From assembly GCA_016744535.1 (NCBI GenBank), contig JADGEE010000026.1, forward strand, positions 1 to 33,298: 33,298 nt of DNA, in the 5' to 3' direction. Shown one piece after another: positions 3,789 through 13,071 of this stretch (position 1 is its first letter; every line of letters starts with the position of its first letter). Under the pieces are notes generated by a model. It was not told where the DNA came from, ran no database searches, and was given only the letters and a program-made list of their open reading frames with translations. Source of the DNA: Campylobacteraceae bacterium (GTDB taxonomy: Bacteria; Campylobacterota; Campylobacteria; Campylobacterales; BB28). A program made the translations under genes and the position numbers.

Positions 3789-3830
3789 AAGTTAAGTAAA
3801 TAATTTATTTATTTCTTAGCTTTTTATTTT
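3789..3830 (+). terminator. Hairpin terminator after rpsO
   Basis: AAGTTAAG (3789-3796) pairs with CTTAGCTT (3815-3822, one G-T pair), and TAAATAA pairs with TTATTTA inside it, with a TTT bulge on the right arm. A T-rich tail follows and overlaps the end of the convergent lipoprotein gene. The stem is AT-rich, hence moderate confidence. Confidence 0.5.
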
Positions 3831-4975
3831 ACATCCAAATAGTGAAATTTTTTATTTTCTGCAACTTTAAAAAAAATTTCTCTTCCTACTATATCACCTC
3901 TTTTTGTAAATGAGTATTTTCCAACAGCACCATCCCAGTTTTTTTTATATCTTAGAGTTTGAGCTATTTCATAAGGAATTGTAGTTTTAGCTTCTTCTAT
4001 AGCATTTATTAAAACTTTTAGTGCATCATAACCTTGTATCGCCCAAGTATCAGGCTCTTTTTTATACTCTTTTTTAAATTCATAAATAAAGTTTTTAGTT
4101 TTTATACCCAATTTATTTGGATTATATATTGTAGCTACAATTACCCCATCTGCTTTATCTTTTGCAACTTCAATTAATTTTTTAGAATCTAGAGCACTTC
4201 CTGTTAAAATAGGAACTGTAATATCCATCTCTCTTGCTTTTTTAATAAAAAATGGAGCATTTTTGTCAGTTCCAGCTAAAAATATTGCATCAAATTCACT
4301 ATCTTTTAGCAATGCAATAATTTCTCTAAATGATTTTTCTTCTATTGAAAATGAGCGTTGATGTATTATTTCAATATCAAGTCCTATCGCTTCTTCTCTA
4401 AATATCCCTGATAGTGAATTTCCATAAAAATTATTTGAATAGAGTATTATCATCTTTTTAAAATTTATCTTTTTAGAAAATTTTGCTAAAGCTTTACCAA
4501 TTTCTATATCATTTGGAGTATTTCTAAAAATATATCTATTTGCATCTCTTGTTAGAAGTGGATATGAAATTGCTGGAGAGATAAAAACTATACCATTATA
4601 TTCATAAGTAATTGAAGCTGGTATAGCAAGTTCTGCATCTTCGTGACCAATAACAGCAATTATATCTAAGTTATCTGCAAAATCTTTGGATATTTGTTTA
4701 GCTCTAAGAAGTGAGCATTTATCATCTTGAGTTATAATTTTAACTTTTTTCCCTAAAACTCCACCATCTTCATTAATCTCTTTTAAAGCTAACTGAATTC
4801 CCTCTAAAAAGTGATTATCTCCCTCTTCTAAGCAAAATGGCCAAGTAACTCCTATTGAAACTTCATTTGAAGTTAGAGAATTTTCTGCCCTTGATTTTAC
4901 CATATCTTCATATTTATTATAAGGATTACATCCTATTAAAAAAAAAAATAAAATTAAATAGATAAAAAATTTCAT
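3824..4975 (-). CDS. Branched-chain-amino-acid-type periplasmic binding lipoprotein
   Basis: A 383-residue substrate-binding protein of the LivJ type (Peripla_BP_6 fold). The first 15 residues form a signal peptide ending in the lipobox LIGC, so Cys16 is probably lipidated and the protein membrane-tethered. The mature part begins near VSIGVTWPFCLEEGDN and shows the fold's hallmarks: GIQLALKEINEDGGVLGKKV, VIGHEDAELAIPASI and the late segment TWAIQGYDALKVL. No permease or ATPase gene is nearby. Its ATG directly abuts the stop of the SPFH gene (TAGATG), so the two are co-transcribed. The ligand cannot be told; amino acid, amide or other small polar molecules are all possible. It could work as a sensor subunit rather than in transport. 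An A11 run at 4938-4948 encodes part of the signal peptide. Confidence 0.85.
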   Translation of the reverse strand: MKFFIYLILFFFLIGCNPYNKYEDMVKSRAENSLTSNEVSIGVTWPFCLEEGDNHFLEGIQLALKEINEDGGVLGKKVKIITQDDKCSLLRAKQISKDFADNLDIIAVIGHEDAELAIPASITYEYNGIVFISPAISYPLLTRDANRYIFRNTPNDIEIGKALAKFSKKINFKKMIILYSNNFYGNSLSGIFREEAIGLDIEIIHQRSFSIEEKSFREIIALLKDSEFDAIFLAGTDKNAPFFIKKAREMDITVPILTGSALDSKKLIEVAKDKADGVIVATIYNPNKLGIKTKNFIYEFKKEYKKEPDTWAIQGYDALKVLINAIEEAKTTIPYEIAQTLRYKKNWDGAVGKYSFTKRGDIVGREIFFKVAENKKFHYLDVK

Positions 4976-5785
4976 CTACTGCTCACCTAAAATAATAGGA
5001 AGTCCACCTTCACCTGCTCCAATTACAATAACTTTGGCATTATTAGATTTTGCTAACTCTTTTGTAGCTTCAATTCCTGCCCATTTAAGATAATTATCAG
5101 TAATATTTTTTGAAATTGTATCTTTGTAAATTTTTATTCCTTCAGCTTCAACCCTTTTTCTCTCTAACTCTTGATGTTCTCTTGCTAACTTATACTCATA
5201 AGCTTTAAATTTGTGAAATTCAGTTATTTTATTTTCAATAGCTTTTTGTACACTTTTTGGAAAATCTATTTTTCTTACAATTAAATCATCCAAAATAATA
5301 AATTTTTGAGCTAACTGTTCAGTTGATTCATTTACTATTTTTTGTAGAATAGCACCTTTTGAAGTATAAATTTCTTCGTCATCAAATTGTCCAAAATATC
5401 TTCTAACTACAGATTCAACTTCAGGTACAACAACAGATACTATATAATTTGGTCCTATCTCTTTATGAATTATGCCTAACATATTGTATTCAGGTTTAAA
5501 TCTAATAGAGAGTTTTATATTAATATGAAGCCCTTGTTTAGTTAAGACTTCAAATTCGTGTTTTCTCTCTTGAATTCTAACATTATATTGCATCATAATA
5601 TCCCAAGGCATAATATAGTAAAAACCCTCTGAATATATTTTGTCTACAATTGTCCCAGAAAATCTTTCAAATAAAATTCCAGCTTCACCTGCATAAATTG
5701 TTACAAATATTTTATGCCATAAAAATACTATTAAAAATAAAATAATTAAAAGTCCAATAACAGAAAAAGAGAAAAAGTTTTTCAT
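4976..5785 (-). CDS. SPFH/prohibitin-like membrane protein
   Basis: A 269-residue protein with one N-terminal membrane helix (about 6-24) followed by an SPFH (band 7) domain. The domain begins IYAGEAGILFERFSG, continues through GFYYIMPWDIM and the strand QYNVRIQERKHEFEVLTKQG, and has a prohibitin-like KIDFPKSVQKAIENKI. A charged helical stretch, about residues 195-225 (EHQELERKRVEAEGIK), probably oligomerises. SPFH proteins form large rings at membranes and scaffold or protect partner proteins. The end is glycine-rich (GAGEGGLPIILG). It lies between a CBS-pair gene (9 bases upstream) and a binding lipoprotein abutting its stop. The family is clear; the partner is unknown, though the operon suggests one of its neighbours. 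Confidence 0.88.
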   Translation of the reverse strand: MKNFFSFSVIGLLIILFLIVFLWHKIFVTIYAGEAGILFERFSGTIVDKIYSEGFYYIMPWDIMMQYNVRIQERKHEFEVLTKQGLHINIKLSIRFKPEYNMLGIIHKEIGPNYIVSVVVPEVESVVRRYFGQFDDEEIYTSKGAILQKIVNESTEQLAQKFIILDDLIVRKIDFPKSVQKAIENKITEFHKFKAYEYKLAREHQELERKRVEAEGIKIYKDTISKNITDNYLKWAGIEATKELAKSNNAKVIVIGAGEGGLPIILGEQ

Positions 5786-5794
5786 TTAAACTCT

Positions 5795-6208
5795 TTATAC
5801 ACTAACTTCTTCTACTTTAATATCATCTATATGGTCAAAAAGAGTGTTCATAATATCACTTATAGTTATGATTCCTTTTAATTTATTATCTTGTGTTACT
5901 AAAAGTCTTTTAACGCCTAAATTAGCCATCATTTTAGCAGCATATTTAATTTCAGCTTCACCTGAAATTGAAACAGCAGGTTTTACAGAAATATCATAAA
6001 CATTTAAAAGTTCAACATCTCCCTCTTCAGCAAAAACTGCTTTTATGATACTTGTATAAGTGATAATTCCATATACATCGTGTTCGTGTTGTTTATTAAC
6101 TATAAGTGATTTTACTCCCTTATCTCTCATTATTCTAAGTGCATCTGTCAATCTAGCCAGTGGTGAAATAGTTGATACACCCTCTTTCATAATATTTTTA
6201 ACTAACAT
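5795..6208 (-). CDS. Two-CBS-domain protein
   Basis: A 137-residue cytoplasmic protein consisting of a tandem CBS pair: domain 1 from about MKEGVSTISPLARLTDALRI to the 60s, and domain 2 from SVKPAVSISGEAEIKYAAKM to GIITISDIMNTLF. Such pairs usually bind adenine nucleotides or S-adenosylmethionine and regulate a partner. I place the start at the ATG 6206-6208 and not the TTG three bases further out, because AAGGGGA is then correctly spaced; the TTG would be too close. It leads the CBS-SPFH-binding lipoprotein unit and is divergent from glgB. Stand-alone CBS pairs are often annotated as inosine-5'-monophosphate dehydrogenase-like; no catalytic domain is present here. Confidence 0.88.
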   Translation of the reverse strand: MLVKNIMKEGVSTISPLARLTDALRIMRDKGVKSLIVNKQHEHDVYGIITYTSIIKAVFAEEGDVELLNVYDISVKPAVSISGEAEIKYAAKMMANLGVKRLLVTQDNKLKGIITISDIMNTLFDHIDDIKVEEVSV

Positions 6209-10240: not shown

Positions 10241-10282
10241 AAAAGAGAAAAAGTTAATTACTCTTCGTAATTAATCTCTTTT
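10241..10282. terminator. Bidirectional hairpin between convergent genes
   Basis: TTAATTAC (10254-10261) pairs perfectly with GTAATTAA (10267-10274) around a TCTTC loop. Outside it AAAAGAGA (10241-10248) pairs with TCTCTTTT (10275-10282), with five unpaired bases on the left. The structure covers the last codons of the beta-propeller gene and can serve both strands. Confidence 0.5.
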
Positions 10283-13071
10283 AAAAATAGTTCACCTCCA
10301 GCAACATATAATCCATAATCTTTAGAATCACTTGTAAATATAATTCCTCTTTGATAATTATAGTTATAAGTTGTAGAATTACTATCAATTTTATCAATAG
10401 ACTTAATTTCTAAACCATCAACTTTATAAATATCTAAATAATTTTGATAACTATTTATCATAGGAGTATCTACAGTTGGTTCAGTCGTTACTGTTGGTTC
10501 AATTGGTTCAACACTAGTTTCACTAGTTGAATTACCTTCACTTACATTACTACTTTCAACACTTATATCTTCATCTGTATCACTATCAATATTATCATAA
10601 TATTCTATCTTTTCATTATAATTTAAATAGTACTTATCAAAATATTCACTTTTTTCACTCTCATTCATCTCTCTTGAGAGTGTTTGATTAATTGGAAGTG
10701 CAAAAAGAAAATCACTTGATCTGTATGTAAAAGCTTTGTGGTTATGTTCAGCTTCAGAATTTACTCTCCAATCTTCACCTATAGTTACTTTATCAGCTAA
10801 AAGTGGATTTGCAAAATCGCTTATATCAAAAAGTTCTAATTGAAGACCTTTTGTTCTTCCCTCTTCATCTGCATCTCTTCCAACTGATAAAATTCTATTT
10901 TCATCTATTGGATGGAAATATGATGAGTAACCTTCAATCTCAAGTTCTCCTATACTTTTAGGGTTAGCAGGGTCTGATAAATCAATTGTGTATAATGGAT
11001 CAGTTTGTCTAAATGTTACAATAAATCCTCTATCTCCTAAAAATCTAACGGCTTTAATAGTCTCACCCTCTTTTCCTAAGCCTTCTAATTTTCCAATATT
11101 ATTTAAACCATCCTCATTCTCTTCAATGGTAGTTATCATATTATCAGTGTCATTTCTCCAAGACCAACCACTTGTAGTTGCTACTCTTAAAATATCATTA
11201 TGTTCACTTAAACTAAATTGGTTTAATATATGTCCATCAGCAAAAGATTTACCGTTATAACTTAATTTATCTTCAATTGAAAATTTATAAATCGATGTTC
11301 TTTCTTGATAATCATTCCAGCCAAAATAGATTGGATACTCATTTGTGGTTACATAAAGAGCCTTATTATTTGCATAAATTGTAGAACTTCCACCAACAAT
11401 AGAAATACTCTCCTGTTTTGAAATATCATCTAATTCAAATGAAGTTATTGAAGTTATAAAACTTGCTTGGTCAAATTTTGATGGTGCATAAAGGCTCTCA
11501 CCTGTAATTAATTCTCTTGAAGTTTCATTCAAATTATCATTAATTGATGGACTTATATTAAGTGCTTTTTGTTGAGGATTTTCATAATCTAACTTATAGT
11601 ATTTTCCATCTTCATTTTTAGTATAGTTGTAACAATATTTACTATAATCTTCATATGGATATGGCTCAATTGCAATTGATGATTCAGGGCGTGGTTCTTC
11701 TGCTATATCTGAATCAACGCTAACTGTTGTAGCTGTTACTGCAATTTCATCTCTATTAACTGGTGCAGGTGTTAGTGCAGTTTCTGTAATCATTACTCCT
11801 ACTTCTACTCCTGTTGTTGGTTCTTCAGGATAAATTACATCTTTATTATCATAAACATACTCTTCACACTCTACATAAACTTTAGGATATTCAACTTCAA
11901 TATATGGCATATATTTTGTAACTAAATAGAGTTTAGAGTTTGCCACTCTACTATCAACTATATTCCCATCAATACTATATTCATTAACTTTTTGAATATC
12001 TTCTAAATTTGATACATTATAGACTTCTATTTTACTTTTTTCACTCCATATATTAGAAGTAGTACTCTCCCAAATTCCCCAAAAACTATTATTATATGGA
12101 TAAATTACAATTAATTTATCATCTATTAAGTATAATTCATTTGGTTTTGATTCAAGTTTGATTGATGTTAAATATTTATTTTCTCCTGCTAAAATTCTTT
12201 CAAAAGTATTTACATAAATTTCTGTATTATCCCAATTTGAAGGTAGATAAAATATGTTTTCACCATCGTGTTTAACAATATCAGCTTCATCAACTCCATC
12301 TTCTTGTAAGTTTGTTGTAGTTGCATTATCAACTTTTACACTATTTTCTCCATTTGTAGATGTATCAGCTTCAGCTATTGGCATAGCTGTTGGAACTGCC
12401 ATACCCTCATCTGTAACACCTCCTACATATATTGGATAAATATTTTGATTAGTTCTATAATTTTTATTGTAATTAATCATCGCCTCTAAATACTCATTCA
12501 TCTTTTCATTTGAATCAAAATTTGTTAATTTTGATTCTTCATCAGATAGATAAATACTTTGGTGGCCATCGGAATTTATCCAAAAACCATCACCTGAGCC
12601 TATTACATCAATTTTAGGGAAACTATCATCGTTATCACTTCCACCAAATTTACTCCAACTTGAATTGTTAAACTTCCAAACACTGTGAACATTTTCAAAC
12701 ATCTTTGGAGAAATTGCACTATTAACTGGTAAAGATATTAAATTCCAACCATCATTTAAGTTAATTTTATCGACTCTATTTAAAATTTCAATATCTTCAT
12801 CTTTATTAAGAATTACATTATTAATATTCAATTGTATATCACTATCAGAGTGTGCCCAAACTCCATCTGTTGGTTTTATATCTCCAGTATCTTTAAACTC
12901 TTCATCGTAAATCCAAATTTTTGTTATATTTTTATTATTTTGAATTAAATTATCTACTGTTGTAGCAGTAGAGAGACCAATTAAATTCCAACCCTCTTTT
13001 AAATTAACTAACTCTGCACTAAGTGTTGTTGCAATTAATGCACTACTTAAAAGTAACTTTATACTTCTCAT
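10258..13071 (-). CDS. Secreted beta-propeller protein with N-terminal GWNL repeats
   Basis: A 937-residue exported protein. A signal peptide (about 1-19, ending TLSA) is followed by two related modules of about 80 residues: LKEGWNLIGL (24-33) and LNDGWNLISLP (105-115), each closing with a GxWxxSD segment (GVWAHSDS at 70-77, GFWINSDG at 162-169). From about residue 250 the motif TTNLQEDGVDEADIVKHDG marks the Pfam Beta_propel family of secreted propeller proteins, whose function is unknown. Two low-complexity linkers interrupt the propeller: one rich in T, V, E and P between about residues 415 and 465, the other SxETSVEPIEPTVTTEP-like near the C-terminus. The ATG start has AAGGAA upstream. No secretion or sorting gene is adjacent; the DASS symporter gene is divergent. 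Surface or periplasmic location is inferred from the signal peptide only. Confidence 0.85.
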   Translation of the reverse strand: MRSIKLLLSSALIATTLSAELVNLKEGWNLIGLSTATTVDNLIQNNKNITKIWIYDEEFKDTGDIKPTDGVWAHSDSDIQLNINNVILNKDEDIEILNRVDKINLNDGWNLISLPVNSAISPKMFENVHSVWKFNNSSWSKFGGSDNDDSFPKIDVIGSGDGFWINSDGHQSIYLSDEESKLTNFDSNEKMNEYLEAMINYNKNYRTNQNIYPIYVGGVTDEGMAVPTAMPIAEADTSTNGENSVKVDNATTTNLQEDGVDEADIVKHDGENIFYLPSNWDNTEIYVNTFERILAGENKYLTSIKLESKPNELYLIDDKLIVIYPYNNSFWGIWESTTSNIWSEKSKIEVYNVSNLEDIQKVNEYSIDGNIVDSRVANSKLYLVTKYMPYIEVEYPKVYVECEEYVYDNKDVIYPEEPTTGVEVGVMITETALTPAPVNRDEIAVTATTVSVDSDIAEEPRPESSIAIEPYPYEDYSKYCYNYTKNEDGKYYKLDYENPQQKALNISPSINDNLNETSRELITGESLYAPSKFDQASFITSITSFELDDISKQESISIVGGSSTIYANNKALYVTTNEYPIYFGWNDYQERTSIYKFSIEDKLSYNGKSFADGHILNQFSLSEHNDILRVATTSGWSWRNDTDNMITTIEENEDGLNNIGKLEGLGKEGETIKAVRFLGDRGFIVTFRQTDPLYTIDLSDPANPKSIGELEIEGYSSYFHPIDENRILSVGRDADEEGRTKGLQLELFDISDFANPLLADKVTIGEDWRVNSEAEHNHKAFTYRSSDFLFALPINQTLSREMNESEKSEYFDKYYLNYNEKIEYYDNIDSDTDEDISVESSNVSEGNSTSETSVEPIEPTVTTEPTVDTPMINSYQNYLDIYKVDGLEIKSIDKIDSNSTTYNYNYQRGIIFTSDSKDYGLYVAGGELFLKEINYEE

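Follow-up and report, generated by a model that had tools for sequence, protein, structure and literature searches.

A gene for a prohibitin-type SPFH (Band 7) protein and a gene for a Liv-type (Peripla_BP_6) binding protein, which follows it directly, form a pair that is conserved in several phyla, occurs twice in the genome of this Campylobacteraceae bacterium and is apparently undescribed. On balance, the two products probably make up a two-part, periplasm-facing accessory for the export of nonribosomal or cyclic peptides, with the copy in the window (the whole analysed stretch of 33,298 nucleotides) being a detached paralogue that acts in trans.

Three co-oriented genes and the CBS protein

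The original prediction grouped three genes, separated by only 9 and 0 bases, into one unit, and all three were found to be real and placed as claimed:

6208-5795, minus strand: two-CBS-domain protein (137 aa from the ATG; CBS E=1.9e-20; two CBS stretches)
5785-4976, minus strand: prohibitin-type SPFH (Band 7) protein (269 aa; Band_7 PF01145 E=2.3e-23, residues 29-192)
4975-3824, minus strand: Liv-type (Peripla_BP_6) binding lipoprotein (383 aa; Peripla_BP_6 E=1.2e-38; lipobox LIGC)

The genes are co-oriented, with 9 bases between the CBS and SPFH genes and none between the SPFH and binding protein genes, a plausible ribosome-binding site can be seen by eye ahead of each of the three starts, and all three are possibly read as one transcript. 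The promoter scan was uninformative (21 promoter-like sites, with 17.9 as the mean for shuffled sequences), and no terminator-like site was found in the same scan. None of the three products has an NfeD domain in the Pfam scan.

This compact layout is the evidence for a device in which the CBS, SPFH and binding proteins together couple a ligand outside the cell to the nucleotide state inside, a reading that we consider highly improbable. The search with a one-sequence profile (E<=1e-5) revealed no CBS gene in the stretch around any of the 80 related SPFH genes, nor does one stand beside the pair's other copy in the genome (C86). Three close relatives of the CBS protein (44-52% identity) are all encoded beside DUF1538 and P-II-like genes, the P-II assignment being below the Pfam cut-off (16.7 bits at most, the threshold being 25) and one small protein out of four matching nothing. 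The DUF1538/P-II-like gene pair of this genome, on C168, has no adjoining CBS gene, as if the latter had moved away from it. Membership of the CBS gene in the unit is thus rejected, and the link to the energy state of the cell that had been proposed is unsupported, because it depended on this gene. The CBS gene looks like a co-oriented chance local neighbour, perhaps co-transcribed with the pair.

Conservation of the SPFH-binding protein pair

The 80 SPFH loci used for comparison were chosen by similarity to the SPFH protein from the window, and in this sample, biased towards the window's relatives, the binding protein gene lies directly after the SPFH gene in 37 loci, distributed over several phyla. 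Its ATG falls within -38 to +37 nt of the SPFH stop in 32 of the 37; the binding protein calls are weak or cut off in four (L026, L050, L057 and L060; 54-98 bits), two of which (L026 and L050) are unrecognised by Pfam. The SPFH proteins accompanied by a binding protein constitute essentially one clade (2 changes versus a shuffled mean of 29.3), with one exception, where the contig ends just after the SPFH gene. The association (37/80) is more than chance. Hence, when related genomes are asked about the neighbourhood originally predicted, the claim that the SPFH and Liv-type proteins belong together is borne out, by adjacency as well as by duplication within the genome, and the inclusion of the CBS gene is not. 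In a further 14 of the 80 loci an exporter, DUF697 or synthetase gene is present and the SPFH gene has no adjoining binding protein gene (one of these loci is cut by a contig end), so that some lineages can evidently do without the binder.

Full-text term searches of the open-licence part of PMC returned no description of the pair in the portions of the articles available there (including PMC12016528, PMC2636767, PMC13086221 and PMC8636102). PMC12016528, as far as its available text goes, deals with the exporter-prohibitin-NRPS/PKS neighbourhood alone, and the terms "binding protein", "transporter", "nonribosomal" and "peptide synthetase" were not found by the term search in the main text of PMC2636767.

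The SPFH protein

The single-chain model of the SPFH protein from the window (pLDDT 86.6, pTM 0.62) predicts one N-terminal membrane helix, the SPFH domain, a long helix and two C-terminal strands, the latter with low confidence (52-58 for the last 20 residues). Structure comparison identified human prohibitin 1/2 as the best matches (Foldseek 2.1e-18; VIA Z 20.4), and prohibitin 8rrh_A scores similarly (Foldseek 5.1e-18; VIA Z 20.3 over 249 residues, rmsd 7.2). Because ribosomal proteins and FliL also reach Z values of about 10-11 against the SPFH core, only VIA rows well above this level were used. In 35 of 40 paired SPFH proteins lysines and arginines are more numerous before the membrane helix than after it, which under the positive-inside rule would fit a periplasmic SPFH domain; this bias is missing in the window protein (1 before, 2 after), in the C86 copy (3 and 3) and in three others.

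Among solved structures, prohibitin and HflC come closest. The window-type proteins share with prokaryotic prohibitins (SPFH4) and HflK/C the fold, the single N-terminal membrane helix, the SPFH domain and the long helix, but differ from them in the dedicated Liv-type binding protein encoded next door and in the company of cyclic-peptide exporters. The arrangement also resembles the SPFH-NfeD pairs (QmcA-YbbJ, flotillin operons), where an SPFH gene has one dedicated partner gene, but the partner here is a binding protein and not NfeD.

According to the accessible text of PMC2636767, prohibitin and HflC act with FtsH-type proteases. Could the SPFH protein then be a prohibitin/HflC-like modulator of FtsH, with the binding protein as a periplasmic substrate or regulator, and with the peptide clusters connected to it via envelope stress or via quality control of the export machinery? 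The Bacteroidota relatives (29 of the 80 loci), which lack exporter, DUF697 and synthetase markers in the neighbourhood, agree with such a function and imply that another role exists in the wider SPFH family. For the pair itself we regard this protease adaptor as unlikely, as it leaves both the conserved binding protein and the exporters unexplained; besides, inspection by eye revealed no protease gene adjoining either the window or the C86 copy of the pair, and the genome encodes a further SPFH protein, at C128 (25% identity, with only part of the query aligned).

The binding protein

The model of the binding protein is of high quality (pLDDT 93.9), and its best solved match is 4mlc/4q6b, a leucine complex (34% identity), i.e. 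the protein exhibits the Peripla_BP_6 fold of the LivJ/LivK branched-chain amino acid binding proteins. The LIGC lipobox at its N-terminus was found both by eye and by script; the window protein is thus lipid-anchored, and the sister copies carry a TM-like N-terminus instead. It departs from LivJ/LivK in its SPFH partner, in the absence of a LivH/M permease from the genome, and in the fusions seen among its relatives, either to a peptide-type SBP_bac_5 domain (L027, L056, L058, L066) or to TSP3 repeats (L031, L046, L053), with L031 additionally possessing an OmpA domain. The search for the LivH/M-type permease family PF02653 gave 0 matches in this genome (99.98% complete), and, as a control, the same search detects it in 12 of 14 well-known genomes. 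The binding protein is therefore solitary genome-wide as far as a permease is concerned, in agreement with the original prediction, and a Liv importer split across the genome can be ruled out on this ground.

The leucine complex and the family assignment would suit a solitary receptor that imports or senses free amino acids together with some other partner, with the SPFH protein only organising the membrane. We find this quite unlikely, given the missing PF02653 permease and the exporters and synthetases with which the pair keeps company; moreover, the 12 long partner proteins scanned with Pfam are devoid of any recognised signalling domain, although in five the C-terminal part matches nothing.

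Exporters and synthetases in the neighbourhood

The exporters belong to TIGR01194, the cyclic peptide export ABC transporters, which we take to be of the PvdE/SyrD type. At C86 a DUF697 gene and a TIGR01194 exporter gene (340.9 bits against a cut-off of 286.2) immediately precede the second copy of the pair (SPFH protein 62% and binding protein 42% identical to those from the window). In another member of Campylobacterota (G286) the gene order is DUF697-exporter-SPFH-binding protein-nonribosomal peptide synthetase, and in yet another (G021) the exporter, SPFH and binding protein genes share one cluster with synthetase, PPTase and thioesterase genes. Among the 37 paired loci, an exporter (>100 bits) or a synthetase-like ORF was found in the stretch around the pair in 20 (18 if synthetase hits must also pass 100 bits), nine have DUF697 only, and eight have none of the three in the stretch examined. 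The window copy differs from the TIGR01194 exporter clusters, in which other copies stand directly behind the exporter, some with DUF697 and a synthetase: neither an exporter nor a synthetase was seen beside it on inspection by eye of all the listed ORFs of the window, and TIGR01194 has no match on the window's contig (C14). The genome as a whole encodes two TIGR01194 exporters scoring over the cut-off and has six condensation-domain hits.

Service in trans to a distant exporter is consistent with the genomes of other such pairs. At 23 loci no exporter scores above 100 bits in the stretch around the pair; ten of the genomes concerned were chosen, and nine were searchable (L032 not among them). 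An exporter over the cut-off is present in all nine and condensation domains in eight, versus ten of ten Bacteroidota controls, all from this one phylum, with neither. Five of the nine loci (L031, L033, L049, L066, L067) start less than 1 kb from a contig end, where an adjoining exporter gene could simply be missing from the available sequence; L028 has a synthetase-like ORF, and L046 and L053 have another kind of ABC permease-ATPase ORF directly upstream of the SPFH gene. This leaves only L040 (and L032) as plainly solitary like the window.

The lack of an adjoining exporter and DUF697, unlike in the nearest tree relatives of the window SPFH protein, might also be expected of a functionless relic of a C86-type cluster. 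This is very unlikely: both genes are full length, model well and keep the zero gap, the branch of the window SPFH protein (0.25, compared with 0.28 for the C86 copy) reveals no further drift on the tree, and similar solitary pairs exist in Thiotrichaceae (L040, L032).

The presence of an exporter does not predict the pair, since in Campylobacterota the exporter family occurs in 98 of 397 genomes (E<=1e-70; nearly all of these genomes in one family) and the SPFH protein in 2 of 397; the rule that an exporter implies the pair is thus ruled out. A PF00144 serine hydrolase (beta-lactamase family) gene adjoins the exporters in L011 and L121; as a general periplasmic maturation enzyme it was rejected, being present in only five loci, of which L011 and L034 are the same place.

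Proposed role

To our knowledge, the onward route of nonribosomal peptides from the inner-membrane exporter is open in most systems. We propose that the SPFH protein would form a ring or cage at the periplasmic face of the inner membrane, as prohibitin and HflK/C do, and that the tethered Liv-type protein would sit in or on this cage. An ABC exporter of the cyclic-peptide type would move the peptide across the inner membrane, whereupon the Liv-type protein may hold it, or an amino-acid-like part of it, until its maturation or its transfer to a step at the outer membrane. The window pair would be a detached paralogue serving one or other of the two exporters whose genes lie at other places in the genome, and the CBS gene upstream a local newcomer. 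Of the sensory or scaffolding device envisaged originally, the scaffold is still possible; the sensing has lost ground, as the neighbourhood points to the export of nonribosomal or cyclic peptides.

We are more hesitant about a broader, albeit quite possible, version, in which the pair would be a widespread undescribed export accessory, with a prohibitin-type cage and a tethered binder receiving nonribosomal or cyclic peptides from a PvdE/SyrD-type exporter and keeping them for maturation or for transfer across the envelope, the SBP_bac_5, TSP3 and OmpA fusions representing hand-over variants, and the window copy again working in trans.

Through this pair, cyclic-peptide exporters of several phyla become linked to a prohibitin-type protein and its binding protein. 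The role of bacterial prohibitins is poorly known, and a 2009 survey stated that none of the bacterial members had been studied (PMC2636767). If the broader version is true, it would provide a concrete client for these proteins. The pair makes the questions of prohibitin function and of peptide transfer directly testable, it offers a marker for peptide clusters, and its binding protein may open a route to their ligands.

Gene organization of the locus

Three minus-strand genes had been placed in one unit by the original prediction, and both their positions and their Pfam families were confirmed:

6208-5795, minus strand: CBS gene, encoding a protein with two CBS domains (Pfam)
5785-4976, minus strand: SPFH gene, with a Pfam Band 7/SPFH domain
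4975-3824, minus strand: lipoprotein gene, encoding a Liv-type binding protein (Pfam)

The CBS and SPFH genes are separated by 9 bases, the SPFH and lipoprotein genes by 0. One flank holds flhA, an Rrf2-type regulator and rpsO, and the opposite flank glgB; these are housekeeping genes, named by eye from their translations, and the unit is therefore isolated. About 4 kb beyond it, a 937-aa protein with a signal-like N-terminus is encoded on the minus strand (10258-13071).

A second pair beside a peptide exporter

The genome of the window (3.02 Mb, 174 contigs, 99.98% complete) possesses on contig C86 a second SPFH gene (62% identity) and a second binding-protein gene (42%), adjacent to each other and preceded by genes for a DUF697 protein and for an ABC exporter that scores above the cut-off of the NCBI cyclic peptide exporter model (TIGR01194). 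Next downstream come two proteins, the first combining SBP_bac_3 stretches with a PEGA domain and the second bearing GspD N0 plus secretin N domains (L006:9377-13079); both look like additional envelope components for this route of export. No CBS gene was seen at the C86 locus, and PF02653 found no match in the genome. Exporters above the cut-off number two (C85, C86), and six condensation-domain matches were identified on contigs C10, C26, C58 and C129, with open frames of up to 3,255 aa. This 3 Mb genome is rich in nonribosomal peptide synthetases, which to our knowledge is rare in Campylobacterota.

SPFH relatives at E<=1e-25 were found in 2 of the 397 genomes of a phylum sample that includes the window's own. 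A looser threshold (E<=1e-10) retrieved them from 4 of 60 genomes in a sample of relatives, strongly in the window's genome and in G021, weakly in G014 and G015 (22 and 29% identity). The G021 locus, encountered again as L034 in the species-genome scan, has the order exporter-SPFH-binding protein in a cluster with a synthetase, a phosphopantetheinyl transferase and a thioesterase, while a further genome, G286, has the order DUF697-exporter-SPFH-binding protein-synthetase. Exporters of this family occur in 98 of the 397 genomes, nearly all of which belong to a single taxonomic family that lacks the pair; the pair accompanies exporters, and exporters do not require the pair. Across 1,665 aligned positions, the synthetase on contig C26 of the window's genome and the G021 synthetase share 35% identity, and the two genomes may therefore make peptide products of related type.

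Distribution of the pair across bacteria

Among the best 80 of 407 SPFH relatives from a species-genome collection, 37 loci carry a Liv-type binding protein directly 3' of SPFH on the same strand; 4 of these assignments come from low-scoring or truncated matches (54-98 bits), and Pfam does not recognise two of the four. In another 14 the SPFH gene lacks an adjoining binding protein, but an exporter, DUF697 or synthetase is present (one of the 14, L039, is truncated where its contig ends), and 29 have none of the four. The binding-protein ATG lies -38 to +37 nt from the SPFH stop in 32 of the 37 paired loci, the pattern expected of a coupled pair. Within the stretch examined, the paired loci contain an exporter ORF (>100 bits) in 14 cases, DUF697 in 23 and a synthetase-like ORF in 14, the last count taking in weak matches down to about 25 bits; 20 have an exporter or synthetase (18 with synthetase >100 bits), 9 DUF697 alone and 8 no marker. 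In two Desulfobacterales-type loci (L027:10791-18010 and L058:1088-8366) three Liv-type proteins stand in a row behind SPFH, the first being an SBP_bac_5 fusion in both. In three annotated plasmid relatives from Alphaproteobacteria, the genes for exporter, SPFH and DUF697 lie near one another, and two of these plasmids carry annotated nonribosomal peptide synthetases; the Liv-type binding protein is absent from all three.

In 23 paired loci the stretch examined shows no exporter match >100 bits. Ten of these were taken (the eight marker-less ones plus L028 and L067), and 10 of the 29 Bacteroidota loci served as controls. The genome search, which covered nine of the ten paired genomes (all except that of L032), identified a cyclic peptide exporter above the cut-off in 9/9 versus 0/10 controls, and condensation domains in 8/9 versus 0/10. 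Five of the nine searched loci (L031, L033, L049, L066, L067) begin <1 kb from a contig end. In two Pseudoalteromonas loci an ABC permease-ATPase ORF of another kind than TIGR01194 (722 and 725 aa, with a C-terminal ABC_tran domain) lies directly 5' of SPFH (L046:7694-9862, L053:7643-9820), and in L028 a synthetase-like ORF directly precedes it. Plainly solitary, like the window copy, are only L040 and L032, the genome of the latter being outside the search.

Phylogeny of the SPFH proteins

In a rapid maximum-likelihood phylogeny of 89 SPFHs (SH-aLRT support only), the presence of the binding protein needs two changes, versus 29.3 in shuffles; the second change is the truncated locus L039. The 29 SPFHs with neither binding protein nor marker form a single clade, of Bacteroidota (support 98). 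The C86 copy, L025 (Sulfurovaceae) and L024 group together, with the window SPFH as the next branch out (support 98 for the group of four); the first three all stand behind exporters, and therefore the exporter-linked state is, from sequence relationships, likelier to be ancestral for the window copy. The L024 contig is labelled Flavobacteriaceae (isolate BB24) and forms a pair with Sulfurovaceae L025 (isolate BB41) in the phylogeny, perhaps owing to misbinning or recent transfer.

Origin of the CBS gene

Relatives of the window CBS gene were found in 3 of 12 other genomes searched (G011 52%, G036 47%, G051 44% identity), and in 3/3 cases adjoin a small P-II-like gene (below the Pfam cut-off) and a DUF1538 gene, a trio thus recurring in three Campylobacterota genomes (L021, L022, L023). 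The window's own genome has DUF1538 and P-II-like genes with the CBS member missing (L120:3084-4915, contig C168), and the window CBS gene is the sole match there at E<=1e-8. Given these observations, the simplest reading is that the CBS gene split from the DUF1538/P-II-like unit and came to stand ahead of SPFH. Of the sensory or scaffolding device originally proposed, the SPFH and binding proteins do belong together, as judged from the paired loci, their single clade and the C86 copy; the CBS protein does not, since none of the 80 SPFH loci has the gene (one-sequence profile) and its relatives keep other company.

Predicted structures and envelope location

The SPFH model (pLDDT 86.6, pTM 0.62) begins with an N-terminal helix, continues through the SPFH domain into a helix of 51 residues and ends in two C-terminal strands; these strands lie within a well-conserved motif and are of low model confidence. 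Its top matches are prohibitins, followed by erlin, HflC, stomatin and others. The charge bias around the membrane helix predicts a mainly periplasmic protein for 35 of 40 paired SPFHs; charges are equal in 2 (including the C86 copy) and opposite in 3 (including the window protein). The binding-protein model (pLDDT 93.9) is matched better by 4mlc and 4q6b (leucine complex, Desulfitobacterium) than by any LivJ. A script classified 40 binding-protein N-termini (a set with three additional tandem ORFs and with one locus counted twice) as lipobox (16), membrane-helix-like (20) or neither (4); the window protein is of the lipobox kind, the C86, G021, G286, L024 and L025 copies of the membrane-helix-like one. 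A scan of 12 long partner proteins identified an extra SBP_bac_5 (peptide-type) binding domain in four (L027, L056, L058, L066) and TSP3 repeats in three (L031, L046, L053), with OmpA as well in L031; these additions are periplasmic-type. No signalling domain was recognised in the 12, the C-terminal part of the other five being unmatched (L030: weak match).

Possible function of the pair

Within the searchable papers we found no description of an SPFH and Liv-type binding protein pair. In Thalassobaculum, a cyclic peptide exporter and a prohibitin family protein are reported to adjoin an NRPS/PKS cluster, with no binding protein mentioned in the passages on that neighbourhood (PMC12016528).

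The analysis establishes the genes, their pairing, the clade, the genomic company and the folds. Beyond this, we lean slightly towards the view that the pair assists the export of nonribosomal or cyclic peptides. The SPFH protein would form an oligomeric assembly facing the periplasm, and the tethered binding protein, with such peptides as its putative ligands, would work with it to help them out of the cell. The window pair would then be a detached paralogue, acting in trans.
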